Positions 1-33,091 of a DNA stretch of 64,000 nt are shown here, in pieces. The DNA comes from Paenibacillus pinihumi DSM 23905 = JCM 16419 (lineage in GTDB: Bacteria > Bacillota > Bacilli > Paenibacillales > Paenibacillaceae), in assembly GCF_000422505.1 (NCBI RefSeq), contig NZ_KE383864.1, positions 354,381-418,380 on the forward strand, written 5' to 3'. The translations under genes and the position numbers were made by a program. Within the stretch, counting starts at the first letter, position 1; each line of letters starts with the position of its first letter. The notes beneath the pieces were generated by a model. The model did no database searches and was not told where the DNA came from. It worked only from the letters and a program-made list of their open reading frames with translations.

Positions 1-167
1 GGACCGGACATGAAACGATGAATTTGCAATCCCGTCTGCTGCATAATTCTTGTGCCCGTTGTACCGGTAGAATATAAATTATGATTCTCAAATGCCTTTT
101 CATAGGCAATAACAAAATTGACCATCTCATCTTTTTTTCGATCATGTGCTATAAATGCAATATTCAT
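1..167 (-). CDS. mgsA: methylglyoxal synthase, N-terminal part (partial)
   Basis: The minus strand opens with ATG at 167 and reads [19 protein letters not shown] and then STGTTGTRI, the phosphate-binding region typical of MgsA. The family converts dihydroxyacetone phosphate to methylglyoxal in the cytoplasm, a bypass of lower glycolysis under phosphate limitation. Only 55 codons are inside the window; the gene runs off the left edge. It follows dapB, as in B. subtilis (dapB-mgsA), which supports the call. Identification is by recognisable N-terminal sequence and synteny. Confidence 0.9.
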
Positions 168-10135: not shown

Positions 10136-10738
10136 CTATGTTCGAGTACGTGAAAGCCAGTTTAAAATAAGCAAGGTTATAATAATGCCGAGTATCGATA
10201 ATGCCACCCAGTACTGTGGTACAGTAGGCACGACATTAAGCACAAAGGGATCACTAATACTTGCTACAGGGATTTCCTCATAAAATTCCGTGCTGATTAA
10301 GGAGATACCTTCATTCGCATTTACCGTATCCAGCAAACCCGTAATATTCGCCATCGATGTGGTGTCCGTCTTTTCACCAAACAGAAAATATACGAATCCG
10401 CAGACAAACATCGCCATACAGCATGCAATTATAGCCGATACATTCCGTTTGAACACCCTGCTAATCTGATAGCGGCGCTCATTAATCGGCATCATCCAGG
10501 ACTGCTCCATATATATACGGTCCATGACGCTGCGCGTGATGTCATCCATTGGTTCAGAAGCCGCTGGTCCTTGTTGGGCAGCGCTGCGGATCATGGCTTC
10601 ACTTTCCTCCCAGATGCGAAACTCCTCCATGCAGCAATTACAATGCTGAAGATGTTGATCAATCGCCATTCGTTCGGGGTCATTTTCCGGTAAATCCCAG
10701 TAAATCCCGAGTGATTCTTGAACTTCATGGCATTTCAT
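10136..10738 (-). CDS. zinc-binding anti-sigma factor (zf-HC2), membrane protein
   Basis: A 200-residue protein whose N-terminus carries the anti-sigma zinc motif His29-x3-Cys33-x2-Cys36 (HLQHCNCC). Two hydrophobic segments follow, near residues 100-122 (IIACCMAMFVCGFVYFLFG) and at the C-terminus (YWVALSILGIIITLLILNWL). Such proteins hold a cognate ECF sigma factor inactive until a signal releases it. The gene overlaps the end of the upstream ECF sigma gene by 4 nt, the usual arrangement of cognate pairs. The signal sensed is unknown. Confidence 0.9.
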   Translation of the reverse strand: MKCHEVQESLGIYWDLPENDPERMAIDQHLQHCNCCMEEFRIWEESEAMIRSAAQQGPAASEPMDDITRSVMDRIYMEQSWMMPINERRYQISRVFKRNVSAIIACCMAMFVCGFVYFLFGEKTDTTSMANITGLLDTVNANEGISLISTEFYEEIPVASISDPFVLNVVPTVPQYWVALSILGIIITLLILNWLSRTRT

Positions 10739-11331
10739 CTTGTCTTCATCCCTTCATATTCTTCCACTGCCAAATGTTCTCCGAAATACGGCTCAAGCTG
10801 AAGCTTCACGCTAGCACGCGCACGGAACAACAGCGACTTGACGGAACTGACCGTCTGGCCGAGTATGTTGGCGATCTCCTGATAATCCAGCTGGTCATAC
10901 TCACGCAATATGAGAGCAGAGCGCTGTTTTTCCGGGAGATTGTTGATTGCTTCCCTAACCAGCAGCATGCGTTCATTTTGCAATACCTGCTGCTCGGGAA
11001 TGGCATCCAGCGGGGCTACCGGTATGTATCCTGTTTCATCAAGCGAGAGATTGGCGTTCTTCTGCTTGCGAAGCTCACTGAGCACTGTATTTCGGGCAAT
11101 TGTATATAGCCAGGTAGAAAAGGAGGCATCAACTTCACGGAATGAATGCAGGCTGCGATAAGCTTTGTAGAAGGTCTCTGAGCACAGATCCTCTGCCATC
11201 AGCTCCAATTGCGCGCTCTTTAGCATATGAAAGATAAAGGACAATATCTTGCGCTGGTAGCGTCGCATCAATTCCGAGTAAAGCTGTACATTGCCATCCT
11301 TGATCTCTCTTATTAACTGGGAATCGGTCAT
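10735..11331 (-). CDS. ECF-type RNA polymerase sigma factor
   Basis: A 198-residue sigma-70 family protein with regions 2 and 4 only. Region 2 includes MAEDLCSETFYKAYRSLHSFR and STWLYTIARNTVLSELRK; region 4 includes LPEKQRSALILREYDQLDY and the helix-turn-helix EIANILGQTVSSVKSLLFRA. It directs RNA polymerase to a stress-type regulon and is probably autoregulated, though no convincing ECF promoter could be assigned in the long upstream gap. Translationally coupled to the zf-HC2 anti-sigma gene. The ECF subgroup cannot be assigned by eye. Confidence 0.92.
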   Translation of the reverse strand: MTDSQLIREIKDGNVQLYSELMRRYQRKILSFIFHMLKSAQLELMAEDLCSETFYKAYRSLHSFREVDASFSTWLYTIARNTVLSELRKQKNANLSLDETGYIPVAPLDAIPEQQVLQNERMLLVREAINNLPEKQRSALILREYDQLDYQEIANILGQTVSSVKSLLFRARASVKLQLEPYFGEHLAVEEYEGMKTR

Positions 11332-11660: not shown

Positions 11661-12338
11661 TTATGCTTCGGATACCTCACTGCTGTCAAAAGCCTTCACA
11701 CTATACACACATCGTCTGCCCCCGGATACAATATGCTCAAGCCGCTCGATCCGGACACTTTCACCAAGCACAGTCTTGAAAAGATGCAGCTCATTTTTGC
11801 AGAGTCGCAAGCAGGCAGTGGCCGCATCGCAAATGGGACAATGCTTTTCCACCAGCAGGAAACTGCCATCCTCCTGATCCTGCACCTCCGCCATATAGCC
11901 CTCCTGTGAGCGTATAGACGCCAGCTTCTCGAGCCGCTCCTTCAAGCCCGGGTTTTCGCCGATTTGCTCTGAATACTGCTGCTGCATTTTTTTGTTTCGG
12001 ACATCAAGCAGCTTGTCCAGGCCGGATGGGCCAAAAGCCTCTTTCATGGAATCAATCAAACTTATGGAAAGCTCTGAATATCCGCTCGGGAAAAACTGAT
12101 TTGCTTCCGGTGTAAGCACCCACAGCTTAGCCGGGCGTCCCATCGGCCGGGCTTCTTCGATGCTGGTCACAATACCTTCCTCTTCCAGCGCATTCAACTG
12201 TTTGCGTATCGCCATCCCCGAGAGGGTAAATTCAGAAGCCAGCTTCAGGACATCCATACCTCCCCGCTGTTTTAACAAATCAATAATTGCCCTCCGGGTT
12301 TTCGTAGCTGATTCTTTACTCGATTCATTTTGCTTCAA
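11661..12338 (-). CDS. SufR-like iron-sulfur winged-helix transcriptional regulator
   Basis: A 225-residue DeoR/ArsR-type regulator. A winged helix occupies about 13-80 (TRRAIIDLLKQRGGMDVLKL, EFTLSGMAIRKQLNALEEEGI, GRPAKLWVLT). The C-terminal half has the cysteine pattern of SufR: HCPIC (Cys167, Cys170), ACLRLC (Cys176, Cys180) and RRC (Cys210), likely ligands for a redox-sensitive [Fe-S] cluster. The start is TTG at 12338, 7 nt after AAAGGGGG; the 14-codon extension to 12380 is rejected. It diverges from an A-type Fe-S carrier and a ferredoxin gene, so control of Fe-S functions from the shared region is a reasonable inference. Confidence 0.85.
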   Translation of the reverse strand: MKQNESSKESATKTRRAIIDLLKQRGGMDVLKLASEFTLSGMAIRKQLNALEEEGIVTSIEEARPMGRPAKLWVLTPEANQFFPSGYSELSISLIDSMKEAFGPSGLDKLLDVRNKKMQQQYSEQIGENPGLKERLEKLASIRSQEGYMAEVQDQEDGSFLLVEKHCPICDAATACLRLCKNELHLFKTVLGESVRIERLEHIVSGGRRCVYSVKAFDSSEVSEA

Positions 12339-12403
12339 TGGAATTCCCCCTTTCTCTTGTAACCGGATCCTCAATTTCAATATTTATATTTTAAACATAA
12401 TTG

Positions 12404-12455
12404 TTGACAAAGTCAAAAATAACATCTATGTTTACTTTATAAACTTTTAAGTTTA
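12404..12455 (+). promoter_or_regulatory. sufR / hesB intergenic promoter with two palindromes
   Basis: On the plus strand TTGACA (12404-12409), a 17-nt spacer and TATGTT (12427-12432). A palindrome AACAT-CT-ATGTT (12421-12432) covers the -10 and a second, TAAACTT-TT-AAGTTTA (12440-12455), covers the expected transcription start. These positions suit repression by the divergently encoded SufR-like protein, but no consensus SufR box is matched, so the regulator is inferred. Confidence 0.6.
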
Positions 12456-12524
12456 AAAATATAAATTGCAGGTCTGACCTTTTTCCCGGTCTGGTGCTGC
12501 ATGACTATGAGCGAGGTGAAAGCA

Positions 12525-12881
12525 TTGATTGAAGTAAGCAAAAAAGCGGAATCCATCATCGCCGGAATGATACAGGATGAAGGTGGAGAAACGTTTTTCT
12601 TGAGAGTCGCCATCGAAGACGGCGGATGCAGCGGGCTTTCCTATAAAATTAAACTTGATGATCAATTGTCGGGCGAAGACAGCACAATTCAGGCTGATGG
12701 CTTTAAGATCGTATGGGAGAAGGCATCAGAGGAATTTCTTGCCGGGGTAAAGATTGATTATATAGATCAGGGGATGACCGGGGGTTTTACCATTGATAAC
12801 CCGAATGCCAAAGCAACCTGCGGCTGCGGGGCCAGCTTCCGTACAGCGACCTACAAGGGTGCCCGGAAAAAATGTGACTAG
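12525..12881 (+). CDS. A-type iron-sulfur carrier (HesB/IscA family)
   Basis: A 118-residue Fe-S assembly scaffold or carrier. The three conserved cysteines are present: Cys35 in GGCSGLSY and Cys99/Cys101 in CGCGASF. Such proteins receive iron or Fe-S clusters and pass them to target proteins. The start is TTG at 12525: GAGGTG (12513-12518) is exactly 6 nt upstream and the product begins IEVSKKAES, as most IscA proteins do; the earlier ATG codons at 12501 and 12507 have no ribosome site. It is followed after 56 nt by a ferredoxin gene. Confidence 0.92.
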   Translation: MIEVSKKAESIIAGMIQDEGGETFFLRVAIEDGGCSGLSYKIKLDDQLSGEDSTIQADGFKIVWEKASEEFLAGVKIDYIDQGMTGGFTIDNPNAKATCGCGASFRTATYKGARKKCD

Positions 12882-12937: not shown

Positions 12938-13177
12938 ATGGCCTTTGTCATTACAGAAGCATGTATTCATGAAAAAGCCGCCGACTGCGCTGATGTGTGT
13001 CCAGTTGACTGCATTGAGGAGGGCGAGGATCAGTTTTACATTGATGCAGACATTTGTATTGACTGCGGAGCCTGTGAAGCAGCATGTCCTGTTGCGGCTA
13101 TTTACTATGAAGATGAACTCCCCGAAGACCAGAAAATATACATGCAGAAAGCTGAGGAATTCTACCGGATTAAATAA
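12938..13177 (+). CDS. two-cluster bacterial ferredoxin
   Basis: A 79-residue ferredoxin with eight cysteines: Cys9, Cys17, Cys21, Cys25 and then Cys40-x2-Cys43-x2-Cys46-x3-Cys50 (CIDCGACEAACP). The widened C-x7-C spacing of the first half is that of seven-iron ferredoxins ([3Fe-4S] plus [4Fe-4S]), though with eight cysteines the first cluster type is not certain. Acidic overall. It shares the plus strand and probably the promoter with the HesB-type gene. AGGAAG lies upstream of the ATG. Confidence 0.93.
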   Translation: MAFVITEACIHEKAADCADVCPVDCIEEGEDQFYIDADICIDCGACEAACPVAAIYYEDELPEDQKIYMQKAEEFYRIK

Positions 13178-13231: not shown

Positions 13232-13258
13232 ACCGGTTGCAAAATATTTTGCGCCGGT
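13232..13258 (+). terminator. imperfect hairpin after the ferredoxin gene
   Basis: ACCGG (13232-13236) pairs with CCGGT (13254-13258) around the perfect palindrome GCAAAATATTTTGC (13239-13252). It starts 54 nt after the ferredoxin stop and is followed only by TTTCC, so it is either a weak terminator or a protein-binding palindrome upstream of the next promoter. Confidence 0.45.
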
Positions 13259-13282
13259 TTCCAAAAAAAATGAAAACGCTTA

Positions 13283-13311
13283 TTGACAAAATGAAAACGT
13301 ATACATATAAT
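13283..13311 (+). promoter_or_regulatory. consensus sigma-A promoter with internal cre site
   Basis: TTGACA (13283-13288), exactly 17 nt, TATAAT (13306-13311): a full consensus match. The spacer positions 13291-13305 read ATGAAAACGTATACA, which matches all 15 positions of the CcpA operator consensus WTGNAARCGNWWWCA. A second, imperfect copy (ATGAAAACGCTTATT, 13270-13284) precedes it. A CcpA-type protein bound here would block RNA polymerase, giving catabolite repression. Confidence 0.85.
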
Positions 13312-13317
13312 AAAAGT

Positions 13318-13398
13318 ACAGTATGGTTTCTCTCCACTCCTATCCAAATACTTAGCGCTCAGAATGAGTGCTGCCACCCGGTTCGGGTGGTTTTTTTT
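13318..13398 (+). ncRNA. candidate small regulatory RNA, catabolite controlled
   Basis: The promoter at 13283-13311 has no open frame of size behind it; transcription would run about 80 nt to a strong terminator. The predicted RNA has a 5' segment rich in C and U (13328-13345, TTCTCTCCACTCCTATCC) with no obvious pairing partner, a 7-bp hairpin GCGCTCA-GAA-TGAGTGC (13355-13371) and the terminator stem. This single-stranded pyrimidine tract could pair with Shine-Dalgarno sequences. A 10-codon frame from ATG 13323 lacks a ribosome site. I cannot match it to a named RNA family. Confidence 0.65.
13374..13398 (+). terminator. terminator of the candidate small RNA
   Basis: CCACCCG-GTT-CGGGTGG (13374-13390) followed by eight T residues (13391-13398), a strong factor-independent terminator on the plus strand. 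Confidence 0.93.
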
Positions 13399-13508
13399 GT
13401 TCATTTTTACTCGTGCAGGTTGCTTCTGAACAAACAGATAAGCCTGCATGCTTCCTCTCTTCCGGAATTCATGAGCTTAGCCGGACCATGCCGGATAAGC
13501 CGCCAGCT

Positions 13509-13572: not shown

Positions 13573-14664
13573 CTAGAAATGGGTGGAATAACCGGAAGAC
13601 TGGAGCAGCTGTACTGCCTGATCCAGATCCGATTGTTCCCGGAAGGATAGCCGGAGCACACCCGGTACATCTTCTCTGCTCTCAATAATTTGCAGGTTGC
13701 TCAGATTAATCCGGTGTTTGCCAAGCTCCGTTGCAATTTTCCCGATAATGCCCGGGTGATCCTCTACATCCACATAACATTCAAAAATCGAATGAATCAT
13801 ACCCTTGCGGCGCTCAGGCAGTTGGCTGCGGAATTCACCGGCTGTGAGAAAAGCTTCCTCAATCGCCGCTCCGTCGCCTTCCTCCAGCACCTTGATCACT
13901 TTGTTCGTCTCCTCCTGCCAGTCGGCAAGCAAAGACAGCATGACGTCTTTATTATTAATCAGAATATCGCGCCAAATAACCGGATCACTGGAGGCTATTC
14001 TCGTAATATCGCGGAAGCCTCCGGCAGCAAGAGAACTGTACAGCGGATTCCCTTCATTATAGCCTCTGATCTGATTGACAAGCATCGCCGCAATAATATG
14101 CGGCAAATGGCTGATTGCGCCGACAATGCCATCATGCTCTACAGCATCGACCATCACGATATGAGCCTTCGTATGCCTAAGGAGCGCCTTGAGACGGTCT
14201 ACTGCCTCCTGGGGTGTTGTCGGGTCTGGCGTCAATACATAGTACGCGTTCTCGAACAGAATCGAGCTGGCTGCCTCTACGCCTGAACGCTCCGAACCGG
14301 CCATTGGATGGCCGCCGATAAAGCAGGCTCCCTGAAGGTCATGCTTGCGCGCACTCGCAGCGACGGACGCCTTGGTGCTGCCGACATCGGTAATAATACA
14401 GCCCGGCTTGAGCTTAAATGTGCTGAGCTGCTGTACGTACTCCTCCAGATTGCCCACCGGCACGCACAGGAAGATGAAATCGGCTGCTTCCGCAGCTTCT
14501 CTCATTGAGGTTGTCCCTTCGTCCACAACCCCCCGCTGAATGTACTTCTCCACCGAGGACGGCCGGACGGAATGCCCGATAACATGAAGCCCCGGCTTCC
14601 CTTTAAAGCAAAGCGCAAGTGAACCTCCAATCAGGCCGACTCCGAAAATGGCTATTGTGGTCAT
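13573..14664 (-). CDS. tyrA: prephenate dehydrogenase with ACT domain
   Basis: TyrA makes 4-hydroxyphenylpyruvate from prephenate in tyrosine synthesis. The 363-residue protein has an NAD-binding GxGLIGGS motif (8-15), the central catalytic region containing FIGGHPMAGSERSG and HDGIVGAISHLPH, and a C-terminal ACT domain (about 293-360, CYVDVEDHPGIIGKIATELG) for allosteric feedback. It overlaps nothing but starts only 3 nt after the hisC stop, so the two genes are coupled. In B. subtilis aroA (EPSP synthase) follows tyrA; here it does not. Confidence 0.95.
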   Translation of the reverse strand: MTTIAIFGVGLIGGSLALCFKGKPGLHVIGHSVRPSSVEKYIQRGVVDEGTTSMREAAEAADFIFLCVPVGNLEEYVQQLSTFKLKPGCIITDVGSTKASVAASARKHDLQGACFIGGHPMAGSERSGVEAASSILFENAYYVLTPDPTTPQEAVDRLKALLRHTKAHIVMVDAVEHDGIVGAISHLPHIIAAMLVNQIRGYNEGNPLYSSLAAGGFRDITRIASSDPVIWRDILINNKDVMLSLLADWQEETNKVIKVLEEGDGAAIEEAFLTAGEFRSQLPERRKGMIHSIFECYVDVEDHPGIIGKIATELGKHRINLSNLQIIESREDVPGVLRLSFREQSDLDQAVQLLQSSGYSTHF

Positions 14665-33014: not shown

Positions 33015-33091
33015 TGGTCGGAGTAACAGGATTTGAACCTGCGACCTCGCCCACCCCAAGGGCGCGCGCTACCAGACTGCGCCATACCCCG
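33015..33091 (-). tRNA. tRNA-Pro (anticodon GGG)
   Basis: 77 nt including an encoded CCA. The acceptor arm CGGGGTA pairs with TACTCCG, the D-arm contains GTAGCGC, the anticodon stem CGCCC/GGGCG encloses loop TTGGGGT with anticodon GGG, and the T-arm is GCAGG-TTCAAAT-CCTGT. It reads proline codons CCC and CCU. Confidence 0.97.

Follow-up and report, generated by a model that had tools for sequence, protein, structure and literature searches.

We identified a predicted small RNA gene of about 81 nt in the genome of Paenibacillus pinihumi DSM 23905, located between a ferredoxin gene and tyrA and carrying a cre site (CcpA operator) within its promoter. From its sequence, the locus probably encodes a free-standing, trans-acting RNA that would be repressed by CcpA and would block Shine-Dalgarno sequences. 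It seems to represent an old gene regulator of the class Bacilli, seemingly one without a name as yet. The window referred to throughout is the whole 64,000-nt stretch of contig NZ_KE383864.1 that was analyzed (positions 354,381 to 418,380, forward strand), and all coordinates of features in P. pinihumi are those of the window.

The interval between the 4Fe-4S ferredoxin gene (12938–13177, plus strand; Pfam Fer4 families) and the convergent tyrA, encoding prephenate dehydrogenase (13573–14664, minus strand; Pfam PDH_N, PDH_C and ACT), contains no evident gene. Within it, a −35 hexamer TTGACA (13283–13288, plus strand) and a −10 hexamer TATAAT (13306–13311, plus strand) are separated by a 17-nt spacer and agree with the consensus in 12 of 12 letters. 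Exact TTGACA-N17-TATAAT occurs a single time on the two strands of the window, compared with a mean of 0.01 in shuffled sequences. Downstream lies an intrinsic terminator (13373–13398, plus strand), with a stem at 13373–13391 followed by T residues to 13398; the general count of terminators around the locus was not above that of shuffles (5 vs. 4.3). We placed the RNA start at 13318 from its spacing to the −10 box and the end at the terminator, giving a predicted transcript of about 81 nt (13318–13398, plus strand) that also draws on its folding z-score and on the covariance model R1 described below. The folding energy of 13318–13399 was −25.9 kcal/mol, against a shuffle mean of −15.83 (z = −3.61). 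The promoter, the gene-free interval and a terminator some 80 nt past the start had all been part of the original prediction and were borne out, and its proposal of a free-standing small RNA gene with a cre in the promoter is supported at the level of sequence. Judged in this way, the locus has its own promoter and its own intrinsic terminator, as expected of a trans-acting small RNA gene.

No Rfam 15 family matched the RNA at gathering score, the sole match in the window being a tRNA at 33018–33091. With a lax threshold (13240–13420, E up to 10), the top score was 15.8 bits (Qrr) and the lowest E value was 0.42 (ylbH, on the other strand); we took these matches as chance.

The promoter spacer is filled by a cre, ATGAAAACGTATACA (13291–13305, plus strand), that agrees with every position of the cre consensus WTGNAANCGNWNNCW. 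A second, cre-like site read from the sequence, ATGAAAACGCTTATT (13270–13284, plus strand), lies upstream with one mismatch, so that both sites are as first described. Full cre matches number four in the window against 1.63 expected by chance, a count reached by 8 of 100 shuffles, and the cre taken alone is therefore weak evidence; the evidence for this putative operator is its position within the spacer together with its conservation. All 142 unique family promoters readable by our script, part of which came from loci retrieved with a promoter-containing query, had TTGACN-16..18-TATAAT-like hexamers, and every one of them was overlapped by a cre (exact in 134, one mismatch in 8). Upstream of the spacer, a further cre with at most one mismatch was present in 85 of the 142. 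When Paenibacillales loci were picked by the core alone, 99 of 99 unique promoters retained the promoter, with an exact cre in 94 and one mismatch in 5. CcpA itself is encoded in the genome (TIGR01481, 493 bits, above the curated cut-off). Within its own family, the RNA is probably switched by the main sugar-sensing repressor.

We analyzed the distribution of the locus at increasing taxonomic distance. A 161-base query that includes the promoter matched 7 of 7 genomes of the genus and all 394 sampled genomes of the family, covering 19 of 19 genera. Searching a single genome of each species for an exact 23-mer from the core gave at least 118 stretches; among the matches listed were Paenibacillus, Cohnella, Saccharibacillus, Brevibacillus, Aneurinibacillus, Pseudalkalibacillus, Caldalkalibacillus, Thermoactinomyces, Melghirimyces and others. 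The covariance model R1 of the transcript, built on 30 family sequences, matched 156 of 398 class genomes (69 of 146 genera, 30 families), comprising 37 from the same family, 1 from the same order and 118 from the remaining class; the other 242 had no match in this search, which, like the class-wide search with RF01820 discussed below, used stricter filters that lose weak matches. The original assignment to Paenibacillaceae holds in that all 394 sampled family genomes have the locus, and is too narrow in that R1 matches 30 families of the class. Across the phylum, the 20-nt core with at most two mismatches was found in 5 of 299 genomes, all 5 from the same family, and in none of the 288 genomes of other classes. 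A mobile origin was rejected, as phages and plasmids gave no match to the locus and a 21-nt stretch of the core had no exact counterpart in viral contigs.

Beyond the order, the promoter differs in its letters. We searched 230 bases around the core at 38 loci outside the order and found a cre with at most one mismatch at 18. The corresponding number averaged 3.6 and never exceeded 10 across 200 shuffles, and 82 of 816 control windows taken from these loci had such a site. Of the 18 sites, at least two (L200 and L224) are located at the edge of a stretch and may be chance. Exact cre sites were present at 6 of the 38 loci against 3 of the 816 control windows. The remaining 20 loci had no cre within one mismatch nearby, indicating that CcpA control is not universal. 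The sites also differ in position, covering the −35 region at L188, L195, L203 and L221 and lying about 50 bases upstream at L209 and L213. By reading, eight of the 38 loci (L189, L194, L197, L201, L203, L204, L207 and L220) contain a cre-like palindrome within the terminator hairpin, about +38 to +60 from the core, where one sequence could serve both as DNA operator and as terminator stem. Because cre sites are enriched but stand at differing places, the link to catabolite control looks older than any single operator.

The transcript contains an ultraconserved core, UAUGGUUUCUCUCCACUCCUAUCC (13322–13345, plus strand), in which the 20 inner letters (UGGUUUCUCUCCACUCCUAU) are nearly invariant among the 178 unique transcripts obtained from 219 loci; the 3′ part is variable. 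Many of the 219 loci were retrieved with the core itself, so that this invariance is partly by selection, and a few loci, including L123 and L190, were left out when they lay near the end of a stretch or when the core or terminator was missed by our script. We also read 40 loci taken by place from the R1 match list, across families and with promoter and cre ignored in choosing. The 26-nt form of the core, AGUAUGGUUUCUCUCCACUCCUAUCC, was exact in 19 of them and within one mismatch in 28; among the other 12, nine differed only in outer letters or in UGG and three (L206, L208 and L215) inside the loop as well. Folding of the 178 unique transcripts gave mean unpaired probabilities of 0.81–0.99 for UUUCUCU and CUCCUAU and 0.53 for CCA, and in the predicted folds UGG has two alternative partners, CCA within the core and UCC(A) at the core's end. 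The originally noted C/U-rich unpaired stretch is therefore present, mostly unpaired in the folds and nearly invariant, and has the predicted accessibility of a conserved single-stranded seed, as expected of a trans-acting small RNA.

Two hairpins follow the core, as had been proposed: P2 (13354–13372, plus strand), which has 8 pairs and a variable sequence, and the terminator hairpin. Both covary. In 18 sequences, 3 of 8 pairs in P2 and 2 of 7 pairs in the terminator hairpin changed on both sides; for the two together this amounts to 5 of 15 pairs and 19 cells, against 4.0 in shuffles. When the structures were slid, no more than 45% of cells remained paired, down from 94%. Of five covariation measures, one, the number of further pair types, did not exceed shuffles (87 of 500 as high). 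In relatives, then, the unpaired segment and the terminator are kept and the hairpins covary, the outcome for which the original prediction had suggested a conservation check. By reading, P2 is seemingly missing in some other families (e.g., L199, L209 and L213), so that the minimal RNA would consist of core and terminator. In L209 and L213 (family f28) and in L216–L218, the core lies further from a −10-like box and its outer letters are changed, suggesting a longer 5′ end. As a separate observation, the spacer between −35 and −10 in L197 and L220 contains AGTGGAGAGGG (GGAGTGGAGAGGG in L197), which is complementary to the RNA's own core, and the same spacer sequence is found in L047 (Caldalkalibacillus).

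During growth on a preferred sugar, CcpA would occupy the spacer operator of this sigma-A-type promoter in Paenibacillaceae and keep RNA polymerase off; once the sugar runs out, the RNA would be made. Its 5′ part is predicted to form an unpaired C/U-rich loop, complementary to Shine-Dalgarno-type sequence (GGAUAGGAGUGGAGAGAAACC). This loop would most likely pair with the ribosome-binding sites of several mRNAs, whose translation would be blocked or which would be exposed to decay, and the 3′ hairpins, the structure of which is supported by covariation, would stabilize and terminate the RNA. The complement of the core, GGAUAGGAGUGGAGAGAAACCAU, resembles a ribosome-binding region, and this resemblance favors the blocking of translation starts as the mode of action. 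A loop that is nearly invariant across many families suggests either many targets or one indispensable partner, fixed early in Bacilli.

Target prediction with the unpaired segment, which had been suggested originally, gave no clear target, with a match at cggR in three genomes and a weak lean toward the resident RNA at sucC. In the P. pinihumi genome, the complement pattern of the core (G:U allowed, at most three mismatches) had 104 hits against 97 for a reversed control, and among 30 of the 104 that were read, none was free of mismatches except the locus itself. The pattern RGGAGTGGAG..ATG was searched in 59 family genomes; among the matches listed, 70 loci were examined, one of them misplaced, and 56 entries precede an open frame of at least 40 codons. 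Also among the matches listed, cggR of the gapA operon showed 12–15 nt of perfect complementarity to the core in three family genomes. A class-wide look at 30 loci, 12 of them from the same family, drawn from 133 genomes with a hit revealed nothing like the cggR match outside the family. We then compared cggR pairing with that of 200 shuffled cores, the P. pinihumi genome being excluded because the start was not recovered. In the three genomes that had raised the idea, 4, 1 and 1 shuffled cores paired as strongly, against 23 to 151 in 11 further family genomes. Since only the former stand out, cggR was dropped as a target. We also examined 1403 frames, both from the surroundings of the locus and from further stretches; in no group did the mean advantage over control cores exceed 2.5 kcal/mol, and no consistent site was seen. 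In one genome, 400 kb with 425 genes yielded 8 sites of strong pairing at ribosome-binding sites against 3.7 for control cores, which is no clear excess, and five of the eight came from one repeated element. This element (L277, L285 and L289 in G535) carries nearly the same 78-codon frame at five places in the 400 kb, and its upstream sequence, GGATAGGTGGGAGACTGAG, produced false target hits.

The metabolic mRNAs that RsaE/RoxS targets through their ribosome-binding sites include sucCD. The ribosome-binding site of sucC contains GAUAGGAGGAU or a near form in several R1-positive genomes, including that of P. pinihumi, and in a few genomes positive for RsaE. We read 69 sucC starts from 89 genomes with a hit (43 R1-positive, 20 RsaE-positive and 6 with neither), one RsaE genome having been dropped as no start was found. 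Across these 69 genomes, the pairing energy at the sucC site gave p = 0.055 for the new core and p = 0.33 for RsaE, and the energy difference leaned toward the resident RNA with p = 0.015, a value not corrected for kinship. The data are weakly suggestive of sucC as a candidate target.

That no target stood out in these searches fits a different explanation, in which a conserved RNA-binding protein (e.g., a chaperone, Rho or a translation factor) recognizes the invariant pyrimidine loop and is titrated or carried by the RNA. The length of the core is in line with this explanation, as an invariant 20-nt stretch exceeds the usual seed length, which counts against pairing, and near-invariance of some 20 nt over many families would be unusual for an RNA that pairs with many mRNAs. 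However, the loop is complementary to Shine-Dalgarno motifs, and a known pairing RNA, RsaE/RoxS, also keeps a long C-rich stretch, UUUCUCCCAUCCCC, which was intact in 15 of 20 RsaE loci read. We consider the protein-binding explanation unlikely, and pairing of the loop with ribosome-binding sites remains our preferred reading.

RsaE/RoxS (RF01820) is the closest parallel to the new RNA. RsaE is described, in the abstract of PMC4409812, as the only known trans-acting small RNA besides 6S conserved between S. aureus and B. subtilis. Both are short small RNAs found in Bacilli over a wide range, and both conserve a long C/U-rich segment that is complementary to Shine-Dalgarno sequences; trans action is a proposal in the case of the new RNA. 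They differ in sequence, in the 5′ half and in length (112 nt for the RF01820 model vs. about 81 nt). They also differ in control, the new RNA having a cre in its promoter and RsaE/RoxS being under ResD/SrrAB according to PMC4409812. Searching the same 398 class genomes, RF01820 matched 112 (82 above cut-off) in 17 families; no genome and no family was common to R1 and RF01820, and 130 genomes had neither. At E 0.001, RF01820 matched none of the 156 R1-positive genomes. In the window, it was absent from the matches at gathering score and from 13240–13420 at E up to 10, and the new RNA does not fall within this family. Conversely, the core with at most three mismatches gave 12 hits (11 genomes) in 72 of the 112 RsaE genomes, against 22 for a reversed control.

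These data bear on the alternative that the RNA is a diverged orthologue of RsaE/RoxS and no separate RNA. Such an orthologue could account for the motif UUUCUC..CCA.YCC in both cores and for the finding that none of the 398 genomes matches both models. However, the shared motif is no better than composition, its local score of 14 being reached by 3916 of 20,000 shuffled cores, and homology by the C-rich core was rejected on this basis; moreover, RF01820 has no match in the region of the locus and, by reading, the 5′ half of RsaE transcripts differs. We regard orthology as improbable, somewhat more so than protein binding. With no significant core similarity beyond composition and no shared genome or family among the 398, we read the new RNA as an analogue and possible predecessor of RsaE/RoxS, not as a family member.

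A sucC tree of 30 genomes (18 with the new RNA and 6 with RsaE) placed the RsaE rows on one side of one branch with 96% bootstrap support; three rows (G434, G445 and G463) had implausibly long branches, probably from the wrong strand, and the root is unreliable. As the tree needs only one label change, a probability for the mutual exclusion is not computable from genome counts, and the exclusion may reflect a single replacement. Speculatively, the new RNA probably performs work of the type carried out by RsaE/RoxS in the clade from which the new RNA is missing. A wider proposal, which we find possible though rather doubtful, is that, as a riboregulator of central metabolism, the new RNA is ancestral in Bacilli and gave way a single time to the non-orthologous RsaE/RoxS in the B. 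subtilis clade. Under this proposal, the CcpA/cre signal would have been retained in many lineages, with the operator moving between promoter spacer, −35 region and terminator stem.

A tiny peptide on a leader RNA could begin at the ATG at 13323 (MVSLHSYPNT), which lies inside the invariant core. We rejected it as very improbable, since its stop is not conserved, its six wobble positions deviate from the commonest letter in just 2 of 1068 cells and no Shine-Dalgarno sequence precedes the ATG within the predicted RNA. An operator or recombination site acting as DNA, with no RNA gene, would fit the conservation of cre and promoter alongside the core inside the family, but it is barely credible: outside the family the promoter letters change, yet the loci read keep promoter-like sequence, core and a terminator-like hairpin in order, and the hairpins covary.

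The genomic neighborhood favors a free-standing RNA with a long history. In 17 of 24 loci, with names assigned by eye from translations, the RNA lies directly downstream of hisC, tyrA or aroA on the same strand, and ypiA/ypiB-like or ECF sigma genes follow it in several. In the window, the RNA adjoins tyrA, which is on the other strand, and is preceded by an iron-sulphur assembly gene and the ferredoxin gene (Pfam); the convergent orientation of the downstream gene makes a leader role unlikely there. The locus appears old and mostly vertically inherited. One genome of family f23 has a second R1 match (L224; G614:C1:1017043-1017104) away from the tyrA/aroA locus, with promoter-like sequence and a terminator. 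Elsewhere in the window, 11661–12881 encodes a winged-helix regulator of the DeoR/ArsR type that has cysteines close to its C-terminus. Its gene is divergent from one for iron-sulphur cluster biosynthesis, and the protein looks SufR-like. The stretch 10136–11331 holds an ECF sigma factor gene followed by a gene with no Pfam hit that probably encodes the anti-sigma factor; sigma genes of a similar kind also occur downstream of the RNA locus in other families.

Other small RNAs are tied to catabolite control. SR1 is such an RNA in a Bacillales genome, that of Bacillus subtilis; it has about 205 nt and encodes the peptide SR1P, whereas the new RNA has about 81 nt and no conserved reading frame, and so lacks the features of SR1. 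RsaI of Staphylococcus aureus is a CcpA-repressed small RNA. For the new RNA, SR1 and RsaI are analogies only. PMC8216469 describes RosA of B. subtilis as CcpA-repressed, a C-rich region of RsaI that binds mRNAs, and G-rich regions of RosA and RsaI that bind C-rich small RNAs. The unpaired part of the new RNA has no such G-rich region and would form the opposite side of such a pair. Judging by titles and abstracts, our literature searches listed no paper on the new RNA, and five spellings of the core sequence itself were not found in them. In Paenibacillus riograndensis SBR5, 27 small RNAs, most of unknown function, were counted among the intergenic novel transcripts, according to PMC5670726; given such unnamed intergenic RNAs, the new RNA may already have been seen as a transcript.

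In the same 398 genomes, the new RNA is found in more families than RsaE (30 vs. 17), none of them shared. Its core motif is easily searchable, so that RNA-seq data already in existence allow tests of the presence, expression and targets of the RNA. If our reading is correct, Paenibacillus, Brevibacillus, Thermoactinomyces and their relatives would possess a sugar-linked post-transcriptional regulator that annotation has missed, and the class would offer a natural experiment on the swapping of one broad small RNA for another.
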